From Bacteroidales bacterium (GTDB taxonomy: Bacteria > Bacteroidota > Bacteroidia > Bacteroidales > UBA932), in contig JAFUGJ010000097.1 of the NCBI GenBank assembly GCA_017469425.1, positions 1-47,418 of the forward strand: DNA of 47,418 nt, written 5' to 3'. Below, piece after piece: positions 33,130 to 47,418 of the stretch (positions are counted from its first letter, which is position 1; every line of letters starts with the position of its first letter). The notes beneath the pieces are model-generated. The model did no database searches. It was not told where the DNA came from and saw nothing but the letters and a program-made list of their open reading frames with translations. Both the position numbers and the translations under genes were made by a program.

Positions 33130-34635
33130 CTATATGAGAATGATCCAACGACCGCCTTTATCGCCGCCTTCACGGGTCAATGCGCCTTTCTCGCGGAGGG
33201 CTGCGATGTCGCGGTAGATGGTGGCAATGGAAACGCCCAGTTTCTCTTTCATTTCCTCTGTCGTTTCTCTATCATTCTGTCTTATGATAGAGATGAGCTT
33301 TTCTTGCCTAGAGGTAAGCACAACGGGGTTTTCTCTATCATTTTCTCTATCATCAACCTTCTTGTTTCCAGTAGTACTGCCCAGCAGTAGGGTCAATTCT
33401 ACGCGGTCATCGTTGGCTCCAAAATATTCTTTCAATTCCGGTTTGGGCCATTTGTTCTCGCTCCATCCCTGCTCAATGATATCAGCTCCACTGCCGAGGT
33501 GCTCGCCACGGCCAACGGCGATGAACATGTCTTGGAGATACGGATTCCGACAGATGCTCCGACCTCCTTTGAAGAAGTCTTCCACAGAAACAAGCATAGT
33601 TCCCGGGTTGATAAAGACAAATCGGTCCGGATAGCGTTCGATAACGACGCCCGACATCATGGCCCAGTTGCAGTGGATGAGTGTATTGCAAATGGCTTCG
33701 CGTAAGGACTCGTCGGCAGCAGTCTCATCTACGCGCTGCATATTGGCATCCAGCTTGAAGGGGTGTGGAATTCCCTGGTCCATGTTCTTGTAGACACGGT
33801 TATAGAACTGGAACAAGTTTGGTTCCCACATTCCGTCCGGATAATAACGGTCCGTATAACGAATTCTTGGATTCGTGCTGAGCTTCTCCCGATAATCCAC
33901 AAAGAAATAAGGCGCAGCCTTGTGCATGGAATCGTGTTTGCCGAACATCAGGATAGCGGCACCCGTGATACCGACTGCCTTGGTCTGTGGATCTTCTGCA
34001 ATACCTTTTATTTTGGAGAGGAAATCAGCATCGGAAAGATCATTCCAAGGGTGTCCGTCGTGACGGGCGCGGAAAGCGTTTCTATACTGACGGATGGTGT
34101 CTGCATCGAGATCATTTTCGATGGTTGCTCCTTCGATAACACGCCGGTCCAAACCATACTGAAGGACAATTGAATCGGCCATCATCCGGCGAACTTCATC
34201 ATCGGAACATTGGTAATCACCTTCGTGGTTACGGCGGAAAGTATGACCATGAAACGGGTCTCCTTTGATGTATATGGGCTTTTGGGCATGGGCGGCGCGT
34301 GGAATATTGATGATGAGGTAATATGAGCTGCCGTCAGATTCCTCCATGACATCTTCCTCCTGAAGCAGGCAGAGGTTCACGGTCTGAGGATTATGAACTC
34401 CATCCCAGAAAATTTTCTTGTAGTGATACATCTGCTCCTCAGTCAGGCCATCCAAGAAGAACTGCCGGCTCTTTTCCTTGATGCCAAGCACAATGATTCC
34501 ACCAGAAGTATTGGCGAACGAGGAATAGGTATCCCAAAAGGTGCCGGGGAAACCGCCTTTCGCACTCTTGAATTCAACGGTATATCCTTCTTTCTTACCG
34601 CAAAGATCAAGAATATAATCTCTAAAATTCTTCAT
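33130..34635 (-). CDS. AlbA_2/Schlafen-type ATP-binding protein with C-terminal winged helix
   Basis: The 501-residue protein opens with an AlbA_2 (Schlafen-like) domain at about residues 15-150 (YTVEFKSAKGG ... SSFANTSGGIIVLGI). A GHKL-like ATP-binding region follows around residues 300-400 (DESLREAICNTLIHCNW, VIERYPDRFVFINPG). The C-terminus is a winged helix (SRQEKLISIIRQNDRETTEE ... ATIYRDIAALREKGAL). Such proteins are often annotated as RecG-like or transcriptional regulators and are frequent in defence islands; their biochemical role is mostly unknown. The linker before the winged helix contains a tandem DREN repeat. It is the leftmost island gene. Confidence 0.82.
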   Translation of the reverse strand: MKNFRDYILDLCGKKEGYTVEFKSAKGGFPGTFWDTYSSFANTSGGIIVLGIKEKSRQFFLDGLTEEQMYHYKKIFWDGVHNPQTVNLCLLQEEDVMEESDGSSYYLIINIPRAAHAQKPIYIKGDPFHGHTFRRNHEGDYQCSDDEVRRMMADSIVLQYGLDRRVIEGATIENDLDADTIRQYRNAFRARHDGHPWNDLSDADFLSKIKGIAEDPQTKAVGITGAAILMFGKHDSMHKAAPYFFVDYREKLSTNPRIRYTDRYYPDGMWEPNLFQFYNRVYKNMDQGIPHPFKLDANMQRVDETAADESLREAICNTLIHCNWAMMSGVVIERYPDRFVFINPGTMLVSVEDFFKGGRSICRNPYLQDMFIAVGRGEHLGSGADIIEQGWSENKWPKPELKEYFGANDDRVELTLLLGSTTGNKKVDDRENDRENPVVLTSRQEKLISIIRQNDRETTEEMKEKLGVSIATIYRDIAALREKGALTREGGDKGGRWIILI

Positions 34636-34662
34636 ATCGCGAAGTTACTACTTTTTTACGAA

Positions 34663-35331
34663 CTATCCGTCAAGTTCCTCTTGCTTCATTTCCGCTGCAT
34701 ATCGTGAGATAAAATCTGCACCCATCGTCTCCTTAAGTCGTGCCTGACCATTATTAAGGAAAGCGAAGTTCTTTCCATCGAATTGTAGGTCATAAAAGCT
34801 CCAATCTATCCGGACTGACCAGTTATTAGCAATAACCTCCCACAATTCTCCCTCCCCAAAGGAAAGTTCTTTTTTAATCAATTTCCCCCATAAATCATAA
34901 CGAGCTTTTGGCATTTCTTCTTTAACATAGTATCGAAGAATTTCAAATAATGCAATTGTCTTGATATACCTACACAAATAAGTATTTGTAACACTACCTA
35001 AATAGCCAAGTTCTCTTGAAAACCCAAAATCGTAATATTCTCCAGTATCAGGAAACGGAAAAAAACCTTCTCTTGCTAATGGGGCATAAACACTGGCATT
35101 CCACATTAATGCTGCATTAATCAAATTTGAAACCGCTTGTTTGGTATCATATTTCACCTTGATATTGCATGATGTTAAAACTGCAGACAACATTTTTTCC
35201 CATAAGAAAGGAACAATACACTCATCCAATGCCGTTATCTCAGCAATGCCCTTGACACATTCTCTATAAGCCTGATAGTTCTCAATATCAATATTATTGA
35301 TAAGTTCTGTTATTTCAGGGTATCTTTTCAT
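34663..35331 (-). CDS. Uncharacterised protein (222 aa)
   Basis: I do not recognise a family. The 222-residue sequence has no signal peptide or clear membrane span and looks mostly helical. Aromatic-rich segments include GEYYDFGFSRELGYLG and WSVRIDWSFYDLQFDGKN near the C-terminus. The start ATG 35331 (MKRYPEITELINNID) is the natural one. Base composition is clearly AT-rich compared with the core genes, which suggests later acquisition. It lies 27 bases before the AlbA_2 gene and 62 bases after kptA on the same strand. Confidence 0.7.
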   Translation of the reverse strand: MKRYPEITELINNIDIENYQAYRECVKGIAEITALDECIVPFLWEKMLSAVLTSCNIKVKYDTKQAVSNLINAALMWNASVYAPLAREGFFPFPDTGEYYDFGFSRELGYLGSVTNTYLCRYIKTIALFEILRYYVKEEMPKARYDLWGKLIKKELSFGEGELWEVIANNWSVRIDWSFYDLQFDGKNFAFLNNGQARLKETMGADFISRYAAEMKQEELDG

Positions 35332-35393
35332 ACTGTATCTTTTCTCCTTGTATATTTCTTTTCATGCTCTCGATTGTATACTCTCAAGTGTTG

Positions 35394-35954
35394 TCAAATA
35401 TTGCTATTCCTTTGCTCCTCCAACTTTGAATGTTCTTTTATGTATATCACATCTACATAGTCTGTCAGCCACACGCCATTCCTGCTGAGGAAGAATTTGT
35501 GACCGTCTTCAGCCATCTTCTTGGCATCAATGACCAACACAATAGGCTTCCCATGTCGCCTTCCAACATTTACAGCTGTCTCGCTGGTCTGTGACAGATG
35601 CACATATAGGCGATTCCCCTTGTTGATGCCCTGTTTTAGGATGGAAGCAAGAGATTGTTCTCCAGTCCCATGATACAGAACTTCTGGCGGTAACTTTTCT
35701 TCCAGTTCCACATCTACATAAACACTGTGTCCCTGTCTTGCCCTGATATGGGTGATATCTTCTGAGAACTCATACCGTTGCTTATTGTTAGTCTCGACAA
35801 TCTCCTTCAACTCGTCCATCGTATAGCCATGATTTGTTATCAGGTCGCTGATTTCTCGCCACCCATGTTCATCAAACGGGTAATTCTTATCATGACGGAG
35901 CAAGAACGCCAGGCGCTTGCCACGATGTATTATGTTATGTCCTTTATATACCAT
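35394..35954 (-). CDS. kptA: RNA 2'-phosphotransferase (KptA/Tpt1)
   Basis: This 186-residue enzyme removes an internal RNA 2'-phosphate by transferring it to NAD+, releasing nicotinamide and ADP-ribose cyclic phosphate. The family motifs are present in order: RLAFLLRHD (Arg20-His21), DEHGWREISDL, ITHIRARQGHSV (Arg71, QGHS), VLYHGT, RLYVHLSQT and NGVWLTD. Length is full. In bacteria the natural target is unclear; roles in RNA repair after ribonuclease attack, or in ADP-ribose capping, have been considered. Its place in a defence-like island favours RNA repair or conflict, but this is inference. It starts 2 bases after the broken DUF1016 gene. Confidence 0.9.
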   Translation of the reverse strand: MVYKGHNIIHRGKRLAFLLRHDKNYPFDEHGWREISDLITNHGYTMDELKEIVETNNKQRYEFSEDITHIRARQGHSVYVDVELEEKLPPEVLYHGTGEQSLASILKQGINKGNRLYVHLSQTSETAVNVGRRHGKPIVLVIDAKKMAEDGHKFFLSRNGVWLTDYVDVIYIKEHSKLEEQRNSNI

Positions 35955-35956
35955 TG

Positions 35957-36301
35957 CTATTTTGCAATCTCATTCTTATCTTTGTTAATATCGAGCAGAA
36001 TTCCTTCCTTGTCCTTGGACAGGGCGAAGCGCTGGAAAAGAGCCGTGCTTTTCTGGCGCTTGAGTTCCCGGACACTCCACTTCTGGGCTTCGCATTCCTT
36101 CGCGTAGAAACTGATTTCCAGAGGATCATCGGATTTGAGAATCTCGAAATAATGACTCCAGCTCAAAATGTGAGACACTGTCTCACTTTTCGGAAAGGAG
36201 CAATAGAATTTTCTCATATAGATGATATTGCTTCGGCTGAAACCCTTTCCGAATCGGTGGGTGAGGTCAGCGGAAAGTAACCATGAATCTATCGCCGTTA
36301 T
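35957..36301 (-). pseudogene. Remnant of a DUF1016/YhcG-type PD-(D/E)XK nuclease gene (N-terminal domain only)
   Basis: The open frame from 36301 to a stop at 35957 encodes SADLTHRFGKGFSRSNIIYM, then LSWSHYFEILK, EAQKWSVRELKRQ and FALSKDKEGIL. This is the core of the DUF1016 N-terminal domain. No start codon is present upstream in this frame; a TGA lies at 36302-36304, and the first ATG (36217) is inside the domain. The C-terminal nuclease domain is absent, since the frame ends after about 20 further residues, right before kptA. The gene has therefore lost both ends. Intact relatives act as nucleases, often near restriction-modification genes. An 86-residue protein from ATG 36217 could still be made. 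Confidence 0.75.
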
Positions 36302-36491: not shown

Positions 36492-37025
36492 TCAGGTCTT
36501 CCGAAGGGTGAATCTCTTTACAATCTTTCCTGTGCGGTCAATGGCGCCCACCAGTTCAATCTCCTCGTCATCCGTCATGCCGTAGCCGTCTTCGTCCATG
36601 TAGTAGTAGCCGTCGGGGTTGATTTGCCACCTGACCTCGGCAATTCCGTCCTCAAATCTGCATACAATAGTTGGGAAACCGGCGTTCCCGTCTTTAGCGC
36701 GGGAATAGGCGTCAGCAGGAACATCACGGATGGATTCCCAGTCAACATCTTCTTCTGAAAACCGGATGAAGCGTTCTTTCCGGTCGAGAAATTCAATGGC
36801 CTCCTTGCTCCTGTGATCCAGCAGGAAGCGTGGTTTCCACCAGCCGTAGATAGATTCTTTGACAAGGGCCATATCTTCTCCCAGGTCTTCGGTGCAGAAA
36901 TCAGTGCTGCTCTCGTATTCGGGTTTTGTCAATTCTTCGTACAAGGACTGAACCGGGCTCATGACTTGAGTCGAAGCGGCTTCAGGTGCCGCAGTTTTCT
37001 TCCTGAATAAATCTCTTAGTTTCAT
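36492..37025 (-). CDS. Uncharacterised acidic protein (177 aa)
   Basis: No family is recognised. The basic start MKLRDLFRKKTAAPEAAS is not a signal peptide. The rest is acidic and aromatic, with YGWWKPRFLLDHRSKEAIEF in the middle and a beta-rich C-terminal part (IVCRFEDGIAEVRWQINPDG, then a YYYMDEDGYG turn). It starts 4 bases after the lipoprotein gene at 37030, so the two are likely cotranscribed. It may belong to the same unit as the large operon upstream, but a 101-base gap separates the lipoprotein gene from that operon. Confidence 0.7.
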   Translation of the reverse strand: MKLRDLFRKKTAAPEAASTQVMSPVQSLYEELTKPEYESSTDFCTEDLGEDMALVKESIYGWWKPRFLLDHRSKEAIEFLDRKERFIRFSEEDVDWESIRDVPADAYSRAKDGNAGFPTIVCRFEDGIAEVRWQINPDGYYYMDEDGYGMTDDEEIELVGAIDRTGKIVKRFTLRKT

Positions 37026-37029
37026 GGCG

Positions 37030-37401
37030 TCAGTATTTTTGATTCATTAACTCGTCAAGTCGTGTTGCATAGGGATAAAGATGCGCACTTATTTTCTTTT
37101 GGGCAAGCGTATCCGCCACATGATTACAAAGCTCCTCGAGCTGCCGGATTCTAACCCAGAACAGCTCGATATTATCCCGATGGCCGATGCTGTCGTAAAA
37201 CCTAACCGCCGCCTCAGTACCCTGCGTAAGCGCCACATTCTCAATCAATTCCTTTTCCGAGACAATCTTTTCGCCGAGCTCGATGGCCTGCTCCATTGCG
37301 CGGGAAATGGCAATCTCCTCGGCTTTATAATGCCTGGCATTTTGATGACAAGCGCACAGCGAAAGCGTGGTAAAGATGATTAGGATGATGGTTCTTTTCA
37401 T
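37030..37401 (-). CDS. Small predicted lipoprotein (123 aa)
   Basis: The N-terminus MKRTIILIIFTTLSLCAC is a lipoprotein signal with a LCAC lipobox, so the mature protein would be membrane-anchored on the periplasmic side. The remaining ~105 residues are predicted helical and charged (EEIAISRAMEQAIELGEKIV, FWVRIRQLEELCNHVADTLA). No family is recognised. The gene begins 101 bases after the preceding gene, with no TAnnTTTG box seen in the gap. Confidence 0.7.
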   Translation of the reverse strand: MKRTIILIIFTTLSLCACHQNARHYKAEEIAISRAMEQAIELGEKIVSEKELIENVALTQGTEAAVRFYDSIGHRDNIELFWVRIRQLEELCNHVADTLAQKKISAHLYPYATRLDELMNQKY

Positions 37402-37502: not shown

Positions 37503-37760
37503 TTACTCACTCTGCTTCTCAAAAAGACTCCGCGCGGCAATCAAGACACAAATCTCTGCAAGTAGCTTGCGAACTTTCTCAATTTGTTCATCCGAAGCGG
37601 TTCTCTCAAAATCTTTTAAAGAATTGATTACGGTGCAAGACTGTTCCCTGAGTTCATCTTCTGTTACGATACCATCCTCTATGATTTTCATGAAAGAATG
37701 TTGATTCATGATAAGGTCATCTATGTTGAGAATGCCTTCTCCTTCAAAAAAAGTATTCAT
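37503..37760 (-). CDS. Uncharacterised small helical protein (85 aa), last gene of the conflict operon
   Basis: ATG 37760 (MNTFFEGEGILNIDD) is preferred because it starts 17 bases after the preceding gene; a longer frame from 37811 would overlap that gene by 34 bases. The 85-residue product is acidic and helical (VTEDELREQSCTVINSLKDF, KVRKLLAEICVLIAARSLFE). No family is recognised. It could be an adaptor or regulator of the membrane protein encoded just upstream. Confidence 0.6.
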   Translation of the reverse strand: MNTFFEGEGILNIDDLIMNQHSFMKIIEDGIVTEDELREQSCTVINSLKDFERTASDEQIEKVRKLLAEICVLIAARSLFEKQSE

Positions 37761-37777
37761 ACCTATCGTTTTGAATT

Positions 37778-38476
37778 TTACTTGGTAAGGTCTTTTCCAC
37801 ATACGGAACAAAAATGGTCCCCGGGATTGAAAGGACTCCCGCAGTCAGGGCAGTTGTGCGCTTTCATAGCTCGGTCCAAAGCCCCGCTGGTGCGGGCTTC
37901 TTTGAATTGCTTGGCACCTTCTCTAAATAATCCACCCATATCTTCACGATTCATGATTTCCTCAATAATCTTCTTGGTGCTGTCATCTTCCGCTACTTGT
38001 ATAGAGCCATCCGGCTTGATTACCCTGGAAATCAATTTAAGATAAACATATGCCGCGGCATAAATGAGACCATATCCAATAGCCCCTTCCGCAAGTGCAG
38101 CACCGGCACTTCCAAAGAGAGGGATGAAGGACAGCACTCCAGCCACAAAATGACCTGCCATCAAAGCTCCATACTGAGTGATGATATTGGTTGCGATGGC
38201 ATTCGCCAGAAACTTGGCTGTTTCCGTGGTCATTGACAACCCAACGGTCTTATTGATTTTAACATAGGTCGCCCAGACAAATCCTGCTTGAGCAATCGCC
38301 GCCATGGCGCCACCGGCCCCGGGGATAACGGCTGCTGCCATGCTGGCTACAGCAGAAGCGAGGGCAAAATGGCTGATTGTCTCAGCGATTCCTTCTATCT
38401 TCGTTCCGTTCAGCGTTCCCTGCATGGCTTTGTCAAGTTCTACCAGAACCTTGGCAAAAAAAGGTGCGATTTTCAT
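37778..38476 (-). CDS. Glycine-rich membrane protein (DUF697-like) with C-terminal zinc ribbon
   Basis: The 232-residue protein has hydrophobic glycine/alanine-rich helices at about residues 38-70 (AVASMAAAVIPGAGGAM) and 98-145 (VAGVLSFIPLFGSAGAALAE). The pattern resembles DUF697/YcjF-type regions and some membrane-inserting domains. Its C-terminus is a four-cysteine zinc ribbon (CPDCGSPFNPGDHFCSVCG). A short conserved-looking amphipathic start precedes the helices. It lies 8 bases after the M48 gene, which carries a similar ribbon, so the two proteins may share a partner or regulation. A role as membrane effector is inferred, not shown. Confidence 0.72.
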   Translation of the reverse strand: MKIAPFFAKVLVELDKAMQGTLNGTKIEGIAETISHFALASAVASMAAAVIPGAGGAMAAIAQAGFVWATYVKINKTVGLSMTTETAKFLANAIATNIITQYGALMAGHFVAGVLSFIPLFGSAGAALAEGAIGYGLIYAAAYVYLKLISRVIKPDGSIQVAEDDSTKKIIEEIMNREDMGGLFREGAKQFKEARTSGALDRAMKAHNCPDCGSPFNPGDHFCSVCGKDLTK

Positions 38477-38484
38477 AATATATT

Positions 38485-39345
38485 CTATTTTAGCTTGTTA
38501 CCGCAATGTTTGCAGAATGTGTCTTCGGAACGGATAGCCCTGTAACAATTAGGGCAGTAAGGGTATTTGGCTCTCAAATCCTTATACTCCGGTGTTGTCA
38601 CCCATCTCAAAGTCTCCCGGATGCGAACAGAAGTGAAAGGATGGCTATTGCCCAGAACCGCATATGTCTGAAGAGTCTTATTCCAGGCTCCATCTTTGCG
38701 TATTGCATCGTATTTGTCGGCTTGCTCTGCCAACTCAATCAAATTAATATCATCTGTGATTGACTTGGGGCCTCCGGCAAGTCGCGACATAACGCGGATA
38801 GTTGCATCCGGGCCGCAATGGAAAGTAGCCACACGGTCGCAGCTAAGCTCACTCTTCCTGCTCCAATACTGGAGGGCAATCATTACAGGGTCTGTAACAA
38901 AACCAAAGAGATTGAACTTTGGTGCATAATCTGTAAGAGACAAAACAATCGTATGATACAACAGGTGCCGACATAAAATATGGCCACATTCATGCGCCAC
39001 CACAGCAGAAAGTTCATCCTCGGTGAGCATCTCTACAAGCCCTGATGTGATGGTAATTGCCGTATAGGTATCTCCAAAAGCATACGCGTTTGGCATAGGA
39101 TCCATCTCCAGATAAAAGGCCGGCTCCCGAATGTCAAGTCTCTGGCAGATTGGTGGCAAAATGTTGTACAGTTTAGGCAACTGCGTTGGCGAAAGAAGAA
39201 TCTTGGAAGCCATATTGGTTCCATAGGTCATCTGTTCAACGCCAAAATCCATAATCTTCTTCACGACAGACGGAAGGATTGGGATTGATTCAAGGGCCTT
39301 CAGCGCAGCCGCATCCTCCGGGTGGGTAAACTCTTGCGGGGTCAT
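38485..39345 (-). CDS. M48-family zinc metallopeptidase with C-terminal zinc ribbon
   Basis: This 286-residue protein carries the gluzincin motif HECGH at residues 118-122 (AVVAHECGHILCRHL), with the third ligand Glu in SRKSELSCDRVA, and PNAYAFGDTYTAITITSGL upstream, as in M48 peptidases (HtpX/Ste24 group). One or two hydrophobic stretches near the active site suggest membrane association. The C-terminus is a zinc ribbon (CPNCYRAIRSEDTFCKHCG). It overlaps the stop of the nSTAND gene by 4 bases (ATGA), so its translation is coupled. M48 enzymes cut membrane or membrane-near proteins; here it may process or activate another component of the operon. Confidence 0.85.
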   Translation of the reverse strand: MTPQEFTHPEDAAALKALESIPILPSVVKKIMDFGVEQMTYGTNMASKILLSPTQLPKLYNILPPICQRLDIREPAFYLEMDPMPNAYAFGDTYTAITITSGLVEMLTEDELSAVVAHECGHILCRHLLYHTIVLSLTDYAPKFNLFGFVTDPVMIALQYWSRKSELSCDRVATFHCGPDATIRVMSRLAGGPKSITDDINLIELAEQADKYDAIRKDGAWNKTLQTYAVLGNSHPFTSVRIRETLRWVTTPEYKDLRAKYPYCPNCYRAIRSEDTFCKHCGNKLK

Positions 39346-42300
39346 TTGCTCAAATGTTGTTTATAACAATCGATTATCTTTTGCCATTGCTCTTTGGTTG
39401 GAGAAAGCAGCAGAAGAACATCCTCTCTACTGTCATATAAATAATTATCAAACAAAGCGCAAGACGAACTATATAACTTAAGTGTTCCGATTCTCCGTAA
39501 TCGGGAATCCAAAATATCATAACCATCTCTTTCGACCACAAAAAAAGCTCCATTATCACTGACAAAGGCATCTCCTTTCGAAAAGAGGGTCTTAATCATA
39601 TGATACTGTGAATCATAAACATTCACGCGCTTTTTCTTTCCGTCGTTATCGATGTCGGTGCTGATAATCAGATAATCTTTATTCTGACTTAAATATGGTT
39701 TAGAGTCAGAATGAAGTGTCTTTATAACTCTCAAACTCGCATCCCTAATCTCTACAAGGTCAGGTTTCTTATAACAAACAAGACTCTCTTCTCTTGGGCC
39801 GAAAGAGACATAGTCATATCCACGAAGAGTATCCTGAACAGAAAGGTCTGCAGCTCGGACCTCATAGTCGTAATCAGCGTACTTGTTTTTATTTATATAG
39901 AATCTTCCATTGGAGGAATAACGCAATCCTTTTCGCGTGAGTACTGCTACACTATCTGCTTTTTCGTCATACACGACACTCTGACTGCTGCGATTAACGA
40001 AAAAGTAATTATCACTACAATAGAAACTGACATCATAGTAAGATGTATTCATCAGCGTATCTATCACATTCATTTCAGAATCTCTAATCTCAACAACATG
40101 CTCATCAACTTCCCGCTCGAGATACTTTCCAGACTTGCTGAAACTGAAAGAACTGGTCGGGTAATTACTAATTAAAGTGTCTATCACTGAAAAAAGGCTA
40201 TCTCTTACTTCTATCCTATAACTACTAAGTGGATTAAGAAGTATGCCATTGACAGGATTGAATTCAATACGATTCGGCAAAAAACCACTTTGGAAACTTG
40301 CAAGCAAAACAGAATCTCTGTCATATACTTCCAACCATCCATCTCTCTCAACAGAAGAAAGGATAAACCGTTGCCCATCAATAGATTTTATGTATCTCGA
40401 AGAGGTTAAAAGAGGTTTCAAGCTCTTCGCATCAAGGATATAATTACAATTATTATTATAAGCTATATAATAGCCATCCTTTCGACAATCAGAATAAAAA
40501 ATTAAAAAATGATATGGATAATTCTCCTGTTCAAGAGAATTCAATACTTGCTGGAACAGCAGTCTGGCTTGAAGCTTGACTGTATCCCTTTTATTTACCC
40601 GCCCATCCTCTGGAATAAGATCAAATAATGTTCTTGCCGCTTCTTCCTTATTACCACTCTCAAGTAACTCTTTTGCATAGCTAAGTTGTTGAATCCTAAC
40701 GATTGCTTTATTCTTTGTAGAATTGTAAACAATTGAGCCTATTATTAACAAGAGAATTATTACCCAGACAATTGGATTATGGAGTTGCTTTTTCATCCAG
40801 CTCCAGAATCTTCTACAATTTGGCTTGAATTCTTTGTTCCAGAACTCCGGCAAATCTGATTTGAACAATTTGCGAATTCCACGAATCAAATCCCGCCACG
40901 ACAGAAGTTGGCTCATCCCAGTCATGAAAACAGCTAAAGCAAGAGGAACAGCCACTAAATTCGCAAATACTATTTCCTCGGCTGGCGACTCTGGAATTGT
41001 AATATTAAGCCAACCATAAACCAACCAGTAAACAGTAAACCAGGCCAATAGAGAAACCGCAAATAACAGTAATCCAAAGAATAAATCCCTGGCAGCTTGA
41101 GGACTCTTCCTCGCCTTGAACAAAAGAACTACTGCGATAAAAACAAGAAGCAGGACAAACAGGGGATAAAAGACATACCCAAATTCGGAAATAAACGGAA
41201 GACTATGAACGAAATAGAGTTTATATCTATAAAAAATGAATTTGTATAACGGCTCAATCTCTATAGCCTTATAATCCATAACAATATCCTTAGCAAGGAC
41301 AGAACCAAGGAATGGTTTTGGAGCAAAGACTGTAATCTTGCTACGATACTGCTTAGGAACGAGGTCTAAACACCGTTGGGAGGGATTATCTGTAAGAACA
41401 TGTAATTCTTTAAGAAATGCAAAACCATCTTCAGAAAGGTAATTAAACAATCCGGCATTATTCGACCCATATGAATAATCCAAAAACAGGGCTGAAGACT
41501 TACTATTATATTCATATACCGGCAATCCCGAAAATGAATCATAATTAAAGTATACATACCTGTTATCAAAGAAAGAAGGATTACCATAATGGCTGGCGAT
41601 AGTGCTTCCCAGGAAATCTGACAGTTGCTTCACATTAGTACCTGCCGGAATATCAACAATCTCATATTCGCAATTCTCATTCGACAACTCATCCTTCTTG
41701 ACAAGAGCACCCCCTATAGAACAGAATTGACCATTGACATAGGTATGATAATCAGTAGTTGCAGCTATCGGTATATTATCTATCGTATTGAATATGACTC
41801 CTTCTTGTTCTCTATAAAGACTGTCATTCGAGAAAGAAATATCGCAATGAAGTATTTTGCCAGGTGAAGGTTTAAAACTGCTTTTAATTCTTATGGAGTC
41901 CGGGAGCTCCAAATATTTAATACCGGAACATCCGACAAAAGAATCAGGGGAAATGCTTCCTACTCCGCGAAGCAAAAGTGTATCTATGGACTTACAATCT
42001 TCAAACGCCCAATTATCAATTACTACGCCATCGCAAAAACGCACTAGTTCCAAATTACTGCACCCAGCAAAACTAGAACTGCCTATTTGCTTAATGCTTT
42101 TTGAAAATAACACAGCTTTTAGGTCTTTTCGTCCTTTAGCAGCAAGACCAAGAACTTTAGTAACACTATTTAAAGGTGGAACATTAAAGTTTAGGATTGA
42201 ATCCGGAACATAACGGACTTTTTCCAACGCCTTCCCAGAATATGAGAATTTATATCGGTTCTCTTCCAATTTACTGTTCTTAAAAACAATTCTATCGAAA

Positions 42301-44204
42301 GCCACCTCTTTTTCTGTTACATCATCTGGGAATGGAGTATAAGATACATACCTCTTAACTATTTCGCCAGTCGATAGAATAAGTGATTCTTCCTCAACAG
42401 AAAGGGCCTTATCACAGTGAACTATATGTGAACCATTCTTCTCCCAGATAACACCATCAATATCTTGATAATAAGAATTATCCGAAGAAACCGACAACTC
42501 AAGTTTAGAGTTATTACCGGACTTGAATGCTTGATATAGCTTTGTTACACTTGCCGGAATGTTTAGCCTCTTTAACTGTGGGCAATCGATTATGTTGTTT
42601 AAATCAACATCTTCCACCCCCTCTGGTAATACTATCTCCCGTAGATTTTCACATTTGATAAAGTATGGAATGCGTTTTTCTGTCCCGTCGCAATTCTTGA
42701 TTACAACTTTTTGAAGATTAGGACAATTGTAAAAGACATAACGAGAAGGTTTTTTCTTCCCATTGACTTCAACCGTTTCATATGTATCATCAAGTTCAAA
42801 ATAGGTCCAATTGTACCCGGTTACAGTCGGATGCTTTTCTTTTTCATTATTGATAGATACCATACTTGAAGAACTTGCATGGAAGATACCTCTGACATGC
42901 AAGAAAACAGAAACAAAAATAATAGCCAAAGCTGCACCAAAAGCCACTTTTAGAGCACGCTTCCGTGAACGGAAAGCATTAACCTTTTTGTTGCCTAAAG
43001 CTACCACCTCCGCAACTTTGTCGTGGACCAGTTCTACATATTCAACCTCATTGATTTCAGTGGTTTTAATGAGATGCCTCTTGTCCAGGGCATCAAGATA
43101 ATCTTCCTTGAAATAAATCTTCTTTAATTGAGGGTCGGTCAGCGGTACACGCAAGCGTTTTCCCTCCATAGAAACCAGTGCACTCTCAATTGCTTTCCTT
43201 ATCTTTTTAGAAATATGAAGCTCTTGAAAAATCTCATTGTAATACTGCCCGATAATTGCAGTGGTAGAAGGCGGTAATTCATCCTCTGAATAAGGAAGCT
43301 TATTTCCAGCTTCATCCTCTTCTGCCATTTCATACAGCTTACTGCAAAGGACGGATAGGATAAGCGTAGAAATATGTTCCTTTCCTTTCTCCTTAGATTG
43401 TTCAATGATTTTATCGGCAATCAAGTCCAGCGTATCAACTCCTTGCTGCGTAACAATTTCCCTGGCCTGTTCGTTGGTAAGAGGCTGAAGTGAGTACCGG
43501 TTGTTTTTAAGCGCAGGCACATTATACCGCTGGATGCCCCAATAATCCAACTGCCCTATATACTCTTCTCGCAGTGAAAAAAGGATTTTATAGCTCTGGG
43601 CTGGGATGGATTCTAAAGTCATCCCGTTCTTGCCCATCTCATCAATCAACGGCTCAGGAATATGCGAAAGGCTTAGTTCGTGGAGTAAATCAAAGAACGC
43701 ATCAGTGTACTCAACCGGCAGCTTGAAGATTTCCTCGAACTGGTCGAACACAATGACTGGAATCACCTCGAATCCCAAACTGGTAATCCTGTTAGAGCGA
43801 AGGAACCACCACAAAGAATTGTCGAAAGCCTCGGAATGATTATCGGGATAATCATCCGTTATATTATACTTTGCATTGTTCGGGAGCTCTTTGTTTAAAA
43901 CCGATATCTCCGATAGAATCTGGGCCCGAATATTATTCTCAAAGGCAGCACGAGGATTTCCTATACTAAGTTGCTCTTCTGCCAGGACAAAAGGGATGGG
44001 CAGATACATATTCCCCCGAAGGTTAGGCACGAGGCCTGCCTTTACGAGAGAACTTTTGCCAATACCGGATTCTGCATACAACACACAAATATCCGACCCT
44101 TCCACTAGATGGAAAAGATTCTTGATGTCGGCATCGCGCCCTTTGAAACGCTGCGCATCTTTTTCTTCGTACTGGCGGAAGCTGAGCCAAGGATTACTAA
44201 TCAT
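39342..44204 (-). CDS. Giant membrane STAND NTPase with leucine-rich repeats and propeller-like tail (1620 aa)
   Basis: Residues 1-410 form a STAND-type NTPase module of the novel-STAND-1 kind. It opens NPWLSFRQYEEKDAQRFKGR, with Walker A AESGIGKSS (44-52), Walker B VIVFDQFEE (152-160 region) and a helical/winged-helix part ending ELVHDKVAEV. A membrane span follows (about 417-438). BspA-like leucine-rich repeats occupy about 485-780 (CPNLQKVVIKNC, SSFAGCSNLELVRF). Four more spans lie at about 1008-1030, 1040-1066, 1078-1098 and 1144-1161. A TPR-like helical stretch (1165-1225) and a repetitive beta-rich C-terminus (about 1230-1600, recurring VEIRDSxxxVIDTL units) suggest a propeller. STAND proteins are ligand-triggered switches in immunity. 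This combination with five membrane spans is unusual. Confidence 0.82.
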   Translation of the reverse strand: MISNPWLSFRQYEEKDAQRFKGRDADIKNLFHLVEGSDICVLYAESGIGKSSLVKAGLVPNLRGNMYLPIPFVLAEEQLSIGNPRAAFENNIRAQILSEISVLNKELPNNAKYNITDDYPDNHSEAFDNSLWWFLRSNRITSLGFEVIPVIVFDQFEEIFKLPVEYTDAFFDLLHELSLSHIPEPLIDEMGKNGMTLESIPAQSYKILFSLREEYIGQLDYWGIQRYNVPALKNNRYSLQPLTNEQAREIVTQQGVDTLDLIADKIIEQSKEKGKEHISTLILSVLCSKLYEMAEEDEAGNKLPYSEDELPPSTTAIIGQYYNEIFQELHISKKIRKAIESALVSMEGKRLRVPLTDPQLKKIYFKEDYLDALDKRHLIKTTEINEVEYVELVHDKVAEVVALGNKKVNAFRSRKRALKVAFGAALAIIFVSVFLHVRGIFHASSSSMVSINNEKEKHPTVTGYNWTYFELDDTYETVEVNGKKKPSRYVFYNCPNLQKVVIKNCDGTEKRIPYFIKCENLREIVLPEGVEDVDLNNIIDCPQLKRLNIPASVTKLYQAFKSGNNSKLELSVSSDNSYYQDIDGVIWEKNGSHIVHCDKALSVEEESLILSTGEIVKRYVSYTPFPDDVTEKEVAFDRIVFKNSKLEENRYKFSYSGKALEKVRYVPDSILNFNVPPLNSVTKVLGLAAKGRKDLKAVLFSKSIKQIGSSSFAGCSNLELVRFCDGVVIDNWAFEDCKSIDTLLLRGVGSISPDSFVGCSGIKYLELPDSIRIKSSFKPSPGKILHCDISFSNDSLYREQEGVIFNTIDNIPIAATTDYHTYVNGQFCSIGGALVKKDELSNENCEYEIVDIPAGTNVKQLSDFLGSTIASHYGNPSFFDNRYVYFNYDSFSGLPVYEYNSKSSALFLDYSYGSNNAGLFNYLSEDGFAFLKELHVLTDNPSQRCLDLVPKQYRSKITVFAPKPFLGSVLAKDIVMDYKAIEIEPLYKFIFYRYKLYFVHSLPFISEFGYVFYPLFVLLLVFIAVVLLFKARKSPQAARDLFFGLLLFAVSLLAWFTVYWLVYGWLNITIPESPAEEIVFANLVAVPLALAVFMTGMSQLLSWRDLIRGIRKLFKSDLPEFWNKEFKPNCRRFWSWMKKQLHNPIVWVIILLLIIGSIVYNSTKNKAIVRIQQLSYAKELLESGNKEEAARTLFDLIPEDGRVNKRDTVKLQARLLFQQVLNSLEQENYPYHFLIFYSDCRKDGYYIAYNNNCNYILDAKSLKPLLTSSRYIKSIDGQRFILSSVERDGWLEVYDRDSVLLASFQSGFLPNRIEFNPVNGILLNPLSSYRIEVRDSLFSVIDTLISNYPTSSFSFSKSGKYLEREVDEHVVEIRDSEMNVIDTLMNTSYYDVSFYCSDNYFFVNRSSQSVVYDEKADSVAVLTRKGLRYSSNGRFYINKNKYADYDYEVRAADLSVQDTLRGYDYVSFGPREESLVCYKKPDLVEIRDASLRVIKTLHSDSKPYLSQNKDYLIISTDIDNDGKKKRVNVYDSQYHMIKTLFSKGDAFVSDNGAFFVVERDGYDILDSRLRRIGTLKLYSSSCALFDNYLYDSREDVLLLLSPTKEQWQKIIDCYKQHLSK

Positions 44205-44209
44205 GATTT

Positions 44210-45604
44210 CTATTTTGGGTTAGGGTTGTATTTCGACCAATTGTACTGATGGAAAGTGTCTTTGGAACAGTCTTCATCATTCCAGAAAAAGAACTGGATA
44301 TGATAGAACAGTTCGCCGGGAAGTATGGGAGACGGTCCGCTGGAAAACCTTTTCTCCAAGTTAATTGCATTGAGTTCGAAGTTGTACATCCTGTCTCCGG
44401 ATTTCACAACAGGCAGCGAATATGTAAGACCAGAATATCTCTTTTTTTGATTTTCAACCGCAAAACGGGTCTCTTCTACAAGGCCGGCGATATCCCCTCC
44501 GAGTTTTGCCTCCATAAATTTAATCATGTAATGCTCCGTAACTATTGGCATAAAATAACGGCTCTCTTCAATACCCTTTTTGAAAGTTTCGAAATAGTTG
44601 CCATCTTCAATTTGCCCGCCATCGTACCACACACGAAGTTTTGCTTTTTCCAGCTCATCTTTTATCTTCTCACATAATTCGTCGTCCTCACTGGCATGCG
44701 AGATAAAAATGTCGTAAGGGAGGTTGTGGGCATGCTCATCCGACTGCCCTTTGTCGGACACTCTCTCCGCCACGGTTTCCAAAATATGGTTAACATCTTT
44801 CTGGGGCCGGTAGCTTATTTCATTCAGGAAGTGGTTGAAGGCAATGTCACTGGATTCTGTGCTGAACCAATACCCTGCTGTCAGTTTGGGTTTGAACTGC
44901 GGGGTGCGCTTGATGGATATCGAATACCAAAGGAAGCGGAAAAGCCAGTCAGGAAAGTCGCAGCCAAGAAACAAAGTACCCCTGTCTTTCAGGTAATCTG
45001 CAAGATTCGACGGGCTGGTGTCATTATCATGCAGGCAGTGCAGGAATTGAAGGAGACTGGTTTCGTCATATACCCAATTGTCGGAGAATTGCTGAGCCCT
45101 GCCAAAGAGGTGGTAAATAATATAGTCATTACCATGAGTGTCGGCATCGCGATCTCCTTCACATCCATAATAATAAGAAGAATACTCGGGGAAATGCTTT
45201 TCGAGGATACCGAATGGGCTGGTTGTGATGATAAGCCTGGGGCGAACGGCCTTAAGGAACTTAAGGACAGAAGGAGAAATAGTAATTCTGTCGATTGCCT
45301 CCGCAACAAAGCTCCGGTAATTCTCAGCGAAATATGAGCTGAACCTACCCTGAAGTAAGGAGAGACCAAAATACCCGGAATGGCTCATCCTGTCACATTC
45401 TTCCTGAGTCATCACCTGACCTGCAGCAGCCAGGGAATCTTCATTCTCGCCAATAAACCTCTCGACAATGAATTCCTGAAGTGGCACATGGTTGCCGCGC
45501 TCGTCCTCGTAAAAAAACTCTTTTTCGCCTACCACGGGTACAATGCGGTTCAAACCATGAATTAACTCATTGATAATTCTTTCCTGCATAAATACTGATG
45601 ACAT
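44210..45604 (-). CDS. SIR2-like and TIR domain protein
   Basis: The 464-residue protein has an N-terminal SIR2-like region (about 10-265): RIVPVVGEKEFFYEDERG, then RLIITTSPFGILEKHFP and IYHLFGRAQ. In active SIR2 proteins the middle motif reads T-N-[FY]-D; here Asn and Asp are replaced (TSPFG), so NAD hydrolysis by this domain may be lost while ligand binding could remain. A TIR domain fills about 296-430 (PYDIFISHASEDDELCEKI, LRVWYDGGQIEDG). Glu377/378 in LVEETRFAVEN is a candidate catalytic position. TIR domains of defence systems cleave NAD+ or make cyclic ADP-ribose signals. It lies 5 bases before the nSTAND gene. Confidence 0.85.
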   Translation of the reverse strand: MSSVFMQERIINELIHGLNRIVPVVGEKEFFYEDERGNHVPLQEFIVERFIGENEDSLAAAGQVMTQEECDRMSHSGYFGLSLLQGRFSSYFAENYRSFVAEAIDRITISPSVLKFLKAVRPRLIITTSPFGILEKHFPEYSSYYYGCEGDRDADTHGNDYIIYHLFGRAQQFSDNWVYDETSLLQFLHCLHDNDTSPSNLADYLKDRGTLFLGCDFPDWLFRFLWYSISIKRTPQFKPKLTAGYWFSTESSDIAFNHFLNEISYRPQKDVNHILETVAERVSDKGQSDEHAHNLPYDIFISHASEDDELCEKIKDELEKAKLRVWYDGGQIEDGNYFETFKKGIEESRYFMPIVTEHYMIKFMEAKLGGDIAGLVEETRFAVENQKKRYSGLTYSLPVVKSGDRMYNFELNAINLEKRFSSGPSPILPGELFYHIQFFFWNDEDCSKDTFHQYNWSKYNPNPK

Positions 45605-45615
45605 AATGCTATTGG

Positions 45616-46059
45616 TTACTCTTCAGAAATATCCCCTACAAAGTCCTTAATCATAACTCTCAACAATTCCTCGGTGTATTGTTTCAAAAGACCTTTATAA
45701 TACGACACATCTTCATGGTTGGTTTTAGTAAGCTTTTCCCAGAGAGTGATTTGTTCTGCGTCTTTCCGGGCATCATTAAGATACGGAGCATAACTGGCGT
45801 CCGTAACCTCAATACTTTTTTTGAGATTCATGATTTCATCGAAGGGCTTTGCGCCTTCCGGAGCCAGTTCCGCCCACAATCTGGAAAGCCAAACGCGAAA
45901 CTCCGAAGCAATCTTGTGAGGGAGTTCGTCATTGTACTCCCCGGCAAGCCTTTCAGGTTTCTTAATTGCAGCCTCATGGATAAAATTCGGAAAGTACTTA
46001 TCTATCAATCCGTTTGCCTTATCAAGACATTGCAGTTCAACCTTATGAGCTTTTTCCAT
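45616..46059 (-). CDS. Uncharacterised helical protein (147 aa) of the conflict operon
   Basis: The protein has no recognised domain. It lacks a signal peptide and membrane span and is predicted mostly helical, with charged amphipathic segments (KVELQCLDKANGLIDKYFPN, KIASEFRVWLSRLWAELAP, SYYKGLLKQYTEELLRVMIK). It lies 5 bases after the RyR gene and 11 bases before the SIR2-TIR gene, so it belongs to the unit. It could be an adaptor between the sensor and effector proteins. Confidence 0.7.
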   Translation of the reverse strand: MEKAHKVELQCLDKANGLIDKYFPNFIHEAAIKKPERLAGEYNDELPHKIASEFRVWLSRLWAELAPEGAKPFDEIMNLKKSIEVTDASYAPYLNDARKDAEQITLWEKLTKTNHEDVSYYKGLLKQYTEELLRVMIKDFVGDISEE

Positions 46060-46064
46060 TCTTA

Positions 46065-47006
46065 TTATCGTTTTTCAATCTTATATCCAAGTTTCACAAT
46101 AAGTTTGATGGCGTTTATTGCCGTAGCACGGTCGTATTCTTTTTCGCCTTCTGTCAAATCTGAATAAGGAAGAAGGTCGGGATGCTTAAGCTGCGCATCA
46201 TCCCGTTCCGTTCCGTAGGACCAGCCTTCGTTCAAGCGGTTCCGCGACCATATCTCATGAGTGTTCTCTGCAATGGCCTCAGTAAGTTCCATAAGAGAAT
46301 CAGGCAGTCGAACATCTGACAAATCAAGGGGAGCAGGTCTGTAGAGTTTAGCAACCGCATCCTTAGTGTTTATTTTTACCATATAATAATCCGAATCGTT
46401 CCATGCATCCATGAACTTGTCCTCTGGAACCACCTGTGGAACATCGCCATGGAAAGGATCATAGCATACGACTTCACCCTCGCAAGAGAGAACGACAAGA
46501 GAATGGTCCGGAATCTTGCCGATGAATTGATCCTCCAAAGATTCGGCTTCAGCATCTCCGTCAATTTCTCCACCATCAACGGCAACTATCACCTGATAGC
46601 CTTCCGACAGAGCGACACGGATATCATCTAAAGAGGAATGATACTTTCGAGCAACGGAAAGTCCATGAAGAGAGCATAGGGAGCCCATCCGGAATAAAGG
46701 AGTTCCGCCATCCTTGAGCCAATCACTCTCCAGCGCTTCTTCCGTGAGCGCTTCTTCGCTGACTGTGATTCCGAAACACTGCAGGATGTATTGCTCACAC
46801 CGGACATTACAAAGGTTGTCCTGTTGTCCGGATGCTGCTTGTGCTAACATAGGCAATATCCTTTCCTTGGGTGCTGCAAGCGAAAGATACTCCCGAAGGC
46901 GGGAATCCTTCCTTGCTTCCAGCAGGATAGCCTCTGTCTCCTGGGCAGTGGCATTTCCTTCAAGAAAGGCGGCAATCATCTCGTCTGTGAGTCTCAGTTT
47001 ATTCAT
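46065..47006 (-). CDS. Three-part protein: anti-sigma-like start, papain/C39-like domain, RyR domain
   Basis: ATG 47006 (MNKLRLTDEMIAAFLEGN) is chosen; ATG 47012 would add two residues. The first ~45 residues resemble the short N-terminus of Bacteroidota anti-sigma/FecR-like proteins (FLEGNATAQETEAILLEA). Residues ~60-215 look like a papain/C39-type peptidase fold: Cys66 or Cys70 in CNVRCEQYILQCFG, His168 in PDHSLVVL, Asp183 in YDPFHGD; activity is uncertain. Residues ~238-312 match the RyR domain (ENTHEIWSRNRLNEGWSYG, LLPYSDLTEGEKEYDRAT). RyR domains in bacteria occur in conflict systems and are thought to bind a small ligand. The start lies within the end of the sigma factor gene, so the two are translationally coupled. 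Confidence 0.78.
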   Translation of the reverse strand: MNKLRLTDEMIAAFLEGNATAQETEAILLEARKDSRLREYLSLAAPKERILPMLAQAASGQQDNLCNVRCEQYILQCFGITVSEEALTEEALESDWLKDGGTPLFRMGSLCSLHGLSVARKYHSSLDDIRVALSEGYQVIVAVDGGEIDGDAEAESLEDQFIGKIPDHSLVVLSCEGEVVCYDPFHGDVPQVVPEDKFMDAWNDSDYYMVKINTKDAVAKLYRPAPLDLSDVRLPDSLMELTEAIAENTHEIWSRNRLNEGWSYGTERDDAQLKHPDLLPYSDLTEGEKEYDRATAINAIKLIVKLGYKIEKR

Positions 47007-47418
47007 TTCCATATTCTTTGAGCACAATGGCGGTAAACTCTGTCATCGCCCTTTTCTTGATGTTATACAAGTTTGCGACCGAGGTATCCAATTCTTCTGC
47101 CAACTCCTTATATTCATAACCATCCAGAAGGAGACGCTGTATGACCAGCCTATGACGGGGATTTTTCATCAGGGAAAGCATCTTCCGAACATCTTGCTGG
47201 ACCTCATCCAACTCATCGGGCTCAAAGTGTGGTTCATCTGTAGGATAAAGAGGTTCGGACGAGGCGTCTTCTATCAAGACGCGACCATCACGTTTTTCCA
47301 AAAAGAATCTCGTTGCAACACATTTGAGCCATTGATAGATACTGCTGCGCCCCTGAAAGGTCTTCAAGCGACGGCCATCATCGGCCATCAAGTAGAGGTA
47401 CAATTCATTGACCAGTTC
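46999..47418 (-). CDS. Sigma-70-family (ECF-like) RNA polymerase sigma factor, 5' end missing
   Basis: The frame is open to the right edge, so the N-terminus lies outside the window; an internal TTG at 47403 is unlikely to be the start. The visible part has the end of the sigma-2 region (ELYLYLMADDGRRLKTFQG, SSIYQWLKCVATRFFLEK), an acidic linker, and a sigma-4 helix-turn-helix (LLLDGYEYKELAEELDTSVA). ECF factors direct RNA polymerase to specific promoters and are usually held by a partner encoded next door. Here that partner would be the overlapping gene with an anti-sigma-like start. Its targets may include this operon itself. Confidence 0.85.
   Translation of the reverse strand, partial: ELVNELYLYLMADDGRRLKTFQGRSSIYQWLKCVATRFFLEKRDGRVLIEDASSEPLYPTDEPHFEPDELDEVQQDVRKMLSLMKNPRHRLVIQRLLLDGYEYKELAEELDTSVANLYNIKKRAMTEFTAIVLKEYGNE

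Follow-up and report, generated by a model that had tools for sequence, protein, structure and literature searches.

The window analysed here (47,418 nucleotides, the entire contig JAFUGJ010000097.1, G000:C47, of a Bacteroidales draft genome that is 94% complete with 6% contamination) ends in a run of eight minus-strand genes, from 47418 to 37503, which the evidence best supports as a TIR/STAND immune payload coupled to two other blocks: a switch of sigma factor and anti-sigma protease, and a cassette of protease and membrane-protein genes. We propose an immune (conflict) island that is inducible and whose three blocks can be exchanged, in which a TIR-made signal would act through a RyR domain on a peptidase and so release a sigma factor, and give this reading a probability of about 0.42; that such islands serve immunity or conflict in some form is far safer, and very probable. 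Comparison with fetched stretches from other genomes and plasmids (loci labelled L035, L220 and so on) bears out the gene set, its domains as predicted from sequence, the sigma/anti-sigma pairing, the conserved putative catalytic and ligand residues and the recombination of blocks with payloads. The original prediction had taken the run for one new eight-gene system; that exact system is rejected because the blocks move separately among loci, and on this comparison the eight genes are three modules, a control pair, a payload and an M48 cassette.

A compact run of eight genes

All eight open reading frames (ORFs) are present, co-directional and as tightly packed as first described, starting at the right contig edge and separated by overlaps or by gaps of at most 17 bases. 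The sigma gene overlaps the AC39-RyR gene (AC39, anti-sigma-C39) by 8 bases (start ATG 47006) or 29 bases (start TTG 47027); gaps of 5, 11 and 5 bases follow between the AC39-RyR, p147, SIR2-TIR and nSTAND genes; the nSTAND and M48 genes overlap by 4 bases; and 8 bases separate M48 from DUFZR. The gap from DUFZR to p102 is 17 bases if p102 starts at 37760, the start site of its nearest relatives. The immune-type domains originally named, RyR, TIR, SIR2-like and STAND, are all confirmed by Pfam matches over cut-off (RyR, TIR_2, SIR2_2 and nSTAND1), and at E ≤ 1e-5 the draft genome holds one TIR_2 and one RyR match, both inside the operon. Because GC content falls from 0.54–0.57 in the first 32 kb to 0.385–0.47 across 32–44 kb (44–47 kb lay outside the calculation), the low-GC stretch with the operon suggests acquired DNA. 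Rfam and tRNA scans of the window gave no match.

A candidate sigma/anti-sigma control pair

The operon begins with the C-terminal 139 residues of an ECF-type (extracytoplasmic function) sigma factor (46999–47418, minus strand), the 5′ end of its gene being lost at the contig edge; its relatives in the fetched loci mostly have 182–229 residues. Matches to NCBIfam TIGR02937 (E = 1.1e-8) and Pfam Sigma70_r4 (E = 0.00045) are both below cut-off, and the complete sigma gene of L035 is matched by phmmer at E = 8e-40. The next gene encodes the AC39-RyR protein (46065–47006, minus strand; alignment A5), which the original prediction called a RyR-peptidase. The RyR part of that description stands (Pfam RyR, E = 1.4e-32, over cut-off; best Protein Data Bank (PDB) relatives animal RyRs and 3nrt, a 'Putative ryanodine receptor'), and the peptidase part we read as a C39-like cysteine peptidase with putative catalytic residues C66, H168 and D183, conserved among aligned relatives (Cys 39/39, His 39/39, Asp 33/39, with Asn in four and Glu in two). 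Pfam C39_2 is over cut-off in the relatives from L035 (25.7 bits, 1.9e-5) and L120 (27.0 bits, 7.6e-6) and falls below it in L119 (22.5 bits). What had been overlooked, an anti-sigma-like N-terminus (residues 1 to about 48), is the central clue to how the operon may be controlled.

Of 42 C39 ORFs, 40, including that of the window, have a sigma gene immediately ahead of them (–120 to +60 bases); L114 and L215 are the same contig, hence 41 of the ORFs are distinct. The two without one are in L158, which lies at the edge of its contig, and in L123, whose C39 ORF has no anti-sigma part. Searching 395 genomes of the class with the AC39 profile A1 returned the window as the full match and five partial ones: N-terminal matches in L135, L137 and L139, each in the product of a gene that immediately adjoins an ECF sigma gene; another in L136, in a protein that looks FecR-like by eye, from a short locus without a detected sigma gene; and one in L138 across the middle of the profile, in an apparently unrelated enzyme. 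The motif HxxxCxxC, which we take to be a zinc anti-sigma motif, is present in the L135 and L139 proteins and in the AC39 protein of L121, and zf-HC2 matches in the L119 and L121 AC39 proteins are weak and below cut-off. Among 247 genomes of the order, 10 have strong-score AC39 or C39 matches, nine of them full length. Sigma-factor control, as originally proposed, is thus likely, and we regard assignment of the pair as ECF sigma and anti-sigma as highly probable on these neighbourhoods and motifs; action of the peptidase on its anti-sigma domain is a more tentative suggestion, at less than even odds.

The RyR-less AC39/C39 proteins of L119, L120 and L123 adjoin dynamin-like GTPases, with Hsp70 as well in L120 and L123, and because these relatives sit with GTPases and Hsp70 the control part seems to accept different sensors. 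A C39 gene with a dynamin-like GTPase and Hsp70 was also seen on Anabaena pANA01 (L236) and Rhodococcus pLPS8 (L237), the latter with an annotated sigma gene near (one of seven Rhodococcus records inspected); over the C39 and dynamin-like GTPase loci together, a sigma gene is near in the Bacteroidales and Rhodococcus cases and Hsp70 is present in four of five. A phage origin of AC39-RyR was considered and set aside: a search for close relatives confirmed none in viral contigs, and the two phage records matched by the protein do so within the RyR domain. Two further loci touch on the pair. In L118 (G135:C40), genes for a sigma factor and a short anti-sigma-like protein stand ahead of a long run with three M48 genes without the zinc ribbon; L121, a sigma/C39/TIR/nSTAND locus in which no M48 gene was found, holds a 71-residue ORF (L121:13461–13676) that by eye resembles the start of M48.

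The RyR domain and its candidate ligand

A 2026 preprint (PMC13232231) describes a phage RyR protein, RyDEP, that cleaves TIR-made 2′/3′ cyclic ADP-ribose (cADPR), with ligand contacts H75, W78, H100 and D117; among eight further phage RyR proteins six bind 2′/3′cADPR and none cleaves it. Mapped by spacing, without the RyDEP sequence, these contacts fall on H250, W253, H275 and D292, all four present in the window protein. Across 34 AC39-RyR proteins the four positions are kept in 34, 34, 16 and 33 (the last with one gap), and in 18 Trk-RyR proteins, the channel-like RyR proteins of sister islands, in 18, 18, 17 and 16. The original prediction offered RyR or SIR2-like domains as the sensor; by analogy with the phage proteins the RyR half of this proposal is plausible, with RyR as a nucleotide sensor, whereas an active SIR2 enzyme is doubtful (see below). 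That RyR reads the TIR-made signal itself we put at slightly under even odds. On a Priestia aryabhattai plasmid (L238) a RyR gene adjoins an annotated nucleotide cyclase, with Pycsar effector and TIR genes near, which is another immune setting for RyR.

The SIR2-TIR and nSTAND1 payload

The SIR2-like and TIR protein (44210–45604, minus strand; alignment A3) matches Pfam TIR_2 (E = 1.5e-11) and SIR2_2 (E = 4.9e-7). Its Glu378, which we take to be the NADase residue of the TIR domain, does not vary across the 15 aligned rows. All 14 proteins with the SIR2 part have Phe or Leu at the presumed position of the sirtuin catalytic His, so this part is probably non-catalytic. PADLOC matches the SIR2-TIR protein best to PDC-S66 (E = 7.7e-16, residues 270–362), and ThsB models match part of the protein (best E = 8e-6); PADLOC otherwise gave two matches, both at E > 0.05.

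Next comes the nSTAND1 NTPase (39342–44204, minus strand; Pfam nSTAND1, PF20703, E = 4.3e-24, 86.3 bits against a cut-off of 27.1; LRR_5, E = 1.1e-20), with an NTPase domain (residues 5–397), a membrane segment at about 417, BspA-type leucine-rich repeats and a C-terminus that is repetitive by eye. Hydropathy gives five membrane segments, one at residue 417 and four within 1011–1159, which would make this a membrane protein; M48, originally described as membrane-type, shows no such segment. A hydrophobic segment follows the NTPase domain (residues 405–490) in 21 of 25 nSTAND proteins, the window's included. At E ≤ 0.1 no PADLOC family matched the nSTAND protein.

Relatives of SIR2-TIR occur in 25 of the 247 genomes, its own included. 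Of the other 24 genomes, 18 supplied regions for comparison, and the remaining six match the TIR part only; 14 of the 18 have relatives that span the SIR2 part, and because nSTAND is the next gene in 12 of these 14, twice across a gap of about 0.4 kb, SIR2-TIR and nSTAND form a separate unit. A first named-genome scan with SIR2-TIR yielded no confirmed relative. The remaining gene, between control pair and payload, encodes p147 (45616–46059, minus strand), a conserved small protein with 10 aligned relatives of similar length (A8) and no Pfam match. We considered it as a CARD adaptor, with the APAF1 CARD at E = 0.42 ranking below HP0721 (E = 0.16) and all PDB matches sub-significant; this was rejected and is a lead only.

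The M48 cassette and its partners

The M48 metalloprotease (38485–39345, minus strand; Pfam Peptidase_M48, E = 2.4e-18) has an HExxH motif and a C-terminal zinc ribbon just below cut-off; relatives at 49–57% occur in three other genomes of the 247. It is followed by DUFZR (37778–38476, minus strand), a hydrophobic-helix protein with a C-terminal zinc ribbon, likewise below cut-off, and five aligned relatives (A9), which had been thought DUF697-like; Pfam gives it no DUF697 match, and in the 247 genomes it is found in its own genome only, besides one match limited to the ribbon. The last gene encodes p102 (37503–37760, minus strand, 85 residues; ORF start listed at 37811; alignment A7), a small M48-cassette protein whose best PDB match, an entry named D_3_633 (2.8e-4), is uninformative.

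A named-genome scan with the M48 alignment gave 94 relatives, of which 80 loci, selected by M48 alone and many ending at contig edges, were kept. HExxH is present in 86 of 86 M48 ORFs of the studied loci and the zinc ribbon in 80. In the 76 loci whose sequence to the right of M48 exceeds 1.5 kb, zr175 lies within 4 kb in 65, p102 in 59 and DUFZR in 6, and zr175 or DUFZR in 69: the window's DUFZR occupies the place that zr175 has in most relatives. Solved structures match zr175 in its zinc ribbon only, none strongly. The records are mostly Bacteroidales drafts; a few are labelled Clostridia, Ruminococcus, Pelotomaculum, Planctomycetota, Lentisphaeria, Kiritimatiellae, Nitrospirales or Gammaproteobacteria, where binning errors are possible. 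On plasmids zr175 was not found, and M48 matched 33 records (23–33% identity among the 20 matches listed), with nothing like the operon in the three neighbourhoods inspected.

The cassette is present at most of the 80 loci while its neighbours vary among TIR, STAND, CHAT (caspase-like) and RyR genes; those checked by Pfam are TIR, CHAT (L190, L203), PrsW (L156), trypsin (L204), vWA (L163) and nSTAND1 (L214, L224). Large membrane proteins labelled Trk by our own profile occur in 20 of 83 M48 runs, and 15 of the 22 ORFs of this cluster have a RyR domain by profile. Individual Pfam matches are uneven: TrkA_N below cut-off in L115 (21.3 against 23.8), Slo-like_RCK over cut-off in the L162 protein of a second large cluster (25.1 against 24) and nothing at E ≤ 0.001 in L189 and L165. 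Such proteins (L162:5306–8281, L115:10350–12329, L189:5266–8145 and relatives) are common partners of the cassette, many with profile-level RyR, and may be counted as weakly supported leads for nucleotide-gated channels.

Blocks recombine across loci

The expectation that the set would recur in order in other islands was borne out in part. Families recur in partial combinations, all eight meet in one of the 80 M48 loci (L220, in another order and with two extra genes), and the window's exact order is found in none. SIR2 and nSTAND genes are both present in 11 of the 80, on the M48 strand in 10 and on the opposite strand in L188. Mapped onto a quick M48 tree, in which 27 of 78 inner branches are weak, the payload state changes 10 times for 11 carrying rows, the window included, and for this reason the payload has probably been exchanged many times. 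L164, whose sigma gene is full length as is that of L220, combines sigma, AC39-RyR, M48, p102, zr175, SIR2-TIR and nSTAND; L211 has M48, p102, zr175, TIR and Trk-RyR, then sigma, AC39-RyR, SIR2-TIR and nSTAND; L197 and L209 resemble the window, with SIR2-TIR and nSTAND ahead of the M48 cassette; and L153, source of the nearest relative of the window's M48 (64% identity), has M48, DUFZR, p102, SIR2 and TIR as two ORFs, and nSTAND.

The 80 loci (1.31 Mb) hold 82 ORFs with TIR (score at least 25, one domain per ORF) and 86 with RyR. Taken whole, 119 genomes of the order yield 118 matches to TIR_2 and 12 to RyR at E ≤ 1e-5; with genomes of a few Mb, this averages about one TIR in each and one RyR in every ten. 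Enrichment in the M48 loci is very roughly 200-fold for TIR and 2,000-fold for RyR, ratios that are only rough because models and thresholds differ between the counts. The TIR label was checked for profile drift: Pfam confirmed six of six labelled payload proteins and also revealed a missed TIR in an unlabelled protein (L180:15705–18932). The recurrence of the blocks is far from chance.

Proposed mechanism and alternatives

In the scheme that we propose, the membrane-anchored nSTAND1 protein would use its large, variable C-terminal region to detect an invader or damage to the envelope, and would then switch on its SIR2-like-TIR partner, whose TIR domain would consume NAD+ and make an ADP-ribose-type signal. 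Binding of this signal by the RyR domain of the anti-sigma protein could lead the fused C39-type peptidase to remove or unlock the anti-sigma domain, and the freed sigma factor would transcribe the operon, so that the response self-amplifies; M48 and the membrane protein with the zinc ribbon may form a membrane arm, a role that is the least certain part of the model. Each of these causal steps we infer, above all the identity of the signal, its binding by RyR and the cleavage of the anti-sigma domain. An extended version is doubtful: a portable, second-messenger-gated switch in which the anti-sigma protein reads a TIR-made ADP-ribose signal through RyR and its own peptidase frees the ECF sigma factor, the same signal being read by RyR on channel-like proteins of sister islands. 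Were it true, bacteria would have a parallel to the action of cADPR on a channel that bears RyR.

Several observations weigh against the proposed order of events. The window's sigma gene is incomplete and its C39_2 match sub-threshold (E = 0.092, 13.8 bits against a cut-off of 24). The second ligand His is Thr in 11, Asn in 6 and a gap in 1 of the 34 AC39-RyR proteins, and thus Thr or Asn in 17 of 34. A search of 16 sequences taken from upstream of sigma genes revealed no shared ECF promoter motif; the best candidate dyad, present in three of the 16, was rejected against 15 shuffled sets that gave 3–4. TIR and RyR presence show no association in 63 M48 loci of at least 12 kb (p = 1.0), and an AC39 gene lies within 2.6 kb upstream of the M48 cassette in 21 of 70, so the control pair is usually not close by. 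AC39 proteins with RyR are only weakly linked to TIR, RyR or Trk genes: such genes are near 24 of 30, against two of six for RyR-less AC39 (p = 0.039), and TIR alone is near 20 of 30 against one of six (p = 0.063), kinship not being removed in either comparison.

That link bears on an account in which sigma and AC39 answer general stress such as envelope damage or misfolding, RyR senses ATP or NAD+ and the immune genes are passengers of the regulon. The RyR-less C39 members with dynamin-like GTPases and mostly Hsp70 (L119, L120, L123 and the Anabaena and Rhodococcus plasmids) would fit it, as would the adenine ligands of animal RyR domains (PMC13232231); against it stands the neighbourhood of the 24 of 30 RyR-bearing loci, and we hold it to be improbable, if the strongest of the rivals. 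It is equally conceivable that RyR destroys or captures the signal, and an anti-sigma protein that hydrolyses or sequesters the TIR product would reset or restrain the response instead of sensing it. By spacing, H250 and D292 correspond to H75 and D117, the RyDEP catalytic dyad, and in PMC13232231 cADPR is cleaved by RyDEP and sequestered by two relatives of the sponge type; that RyR is physically fused to anti-sigma and peptidase domains speaks for a sensor, as do the eight further phage homologues, six of which bound signals and none of which cleaved them (PMC13232231). An off-switch seems unlikely. Just as unlikely is a chance gathering of two or three unrelated systems co-transcribed in a defence island. 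An M48 relative adjoins the SIR2-TIR/nSTAND pair in only one of 12 other genomes (G208), and the 10 payload changes on the M48 tree would agree with such a gathering, but the window's genes overlap, 11 of 80 M48 loci hold SIR2 and nSTAND although the pair occurs in only 13 of 247 genomes, and L164, L211 and L220 again combine control pair, cassette and payload.

Relation to known systems

Thoeris is one of the closest known systems: both have a TIR enzyme with NAD-type domains and, probably, a signal of the ADP-ribose type that a second protein reads, and Pfam places payload TIRs from L162 and L180, two sister loci, above the ThsB_TIR cut-off. Thoeris couples a TIR-made cADPR signal to SIR2 or other effectors, whereas here TIR is fused to a SIR2-like part without the sirtuin His and paired with nSTAND1, and the candidate signal reader is the anti-sigma protein; Pfam and PADLOC detected no ThsA or SLOG among the eight proteins, and Avs and other PADLOC STAND models did not match the nSTAND protein. 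RyDEP shares the RyR domain (PF02026) with His, Trp, His and Asp at the same spacing, but it is a phage anti-defence enzyme or sponge, and here a host protein carries RyR fused to anti-sigma and peptidase domains (PMC13232231). As portable regulatory pairs beside diverse immune operons, CapW, CapH with CapP and CapK with CapS are also alike; according to PMC13373217 these are DNA-binding repressors that answer DNA damage, CapP being a protease that cleaves a repressor, whereas the candidate here is an ECF sigma factor with an anti-sigma/cysteine peptidase bearing RyR. Pfam found no HTH (helix-turn-helix) or winged-HTH repressor with a WYL domain, peptidase partner or GHKL kinase in the eight proteins, HTH being confined to the sigma factor. 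ECF-sigma-linked conflict systems with a caspase have been described (PMC8195603), with caspase and EACC2 domains where we find a C39-like peptidase and RyR; Pfam has no caspase match in the operon, and EACC2 was not searched for.

A literature search, largely without subscription papers, turned up no description that we recognised of an anti-sigma-C39-RyR protein or an M48-p102-zr175 cassette, and PMC7159879 makes no mention of RyR, M48, C39 or SIR2. The 2026 preprint has phage RyR domains attacking nucleotide signals and points to animal RyRs (PMC13232231); RyR in TIR-rich bacterial islands, on an anti-sigma factor and on channel-like proteins, bears on nucleotide immune signalling from the host side. 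If the proposed mechanism is true, sigma-factor release joins the few known ways to switch immune operons on. The profile sets of sigma with AC39 and of M48 with p102 and zr175 can be used to find further uncharacterised immune genes.

Neighbouring genes

After a 101-base gap the operon is followed by two small minus-strand genes (36492–37401) for proteins of 123 residues, lipoprotein-like by eye, and 177 residues; among the M48 runs the latter has one relative (L163) and the former none. Beside the operon, the same low-GC stretch encodes a Schlafen/AlbA-type protein, a KptA/Tpt1 RNA 2′-phosphotransferase and a DUF1016 N-terminal fragment (33130–36217).

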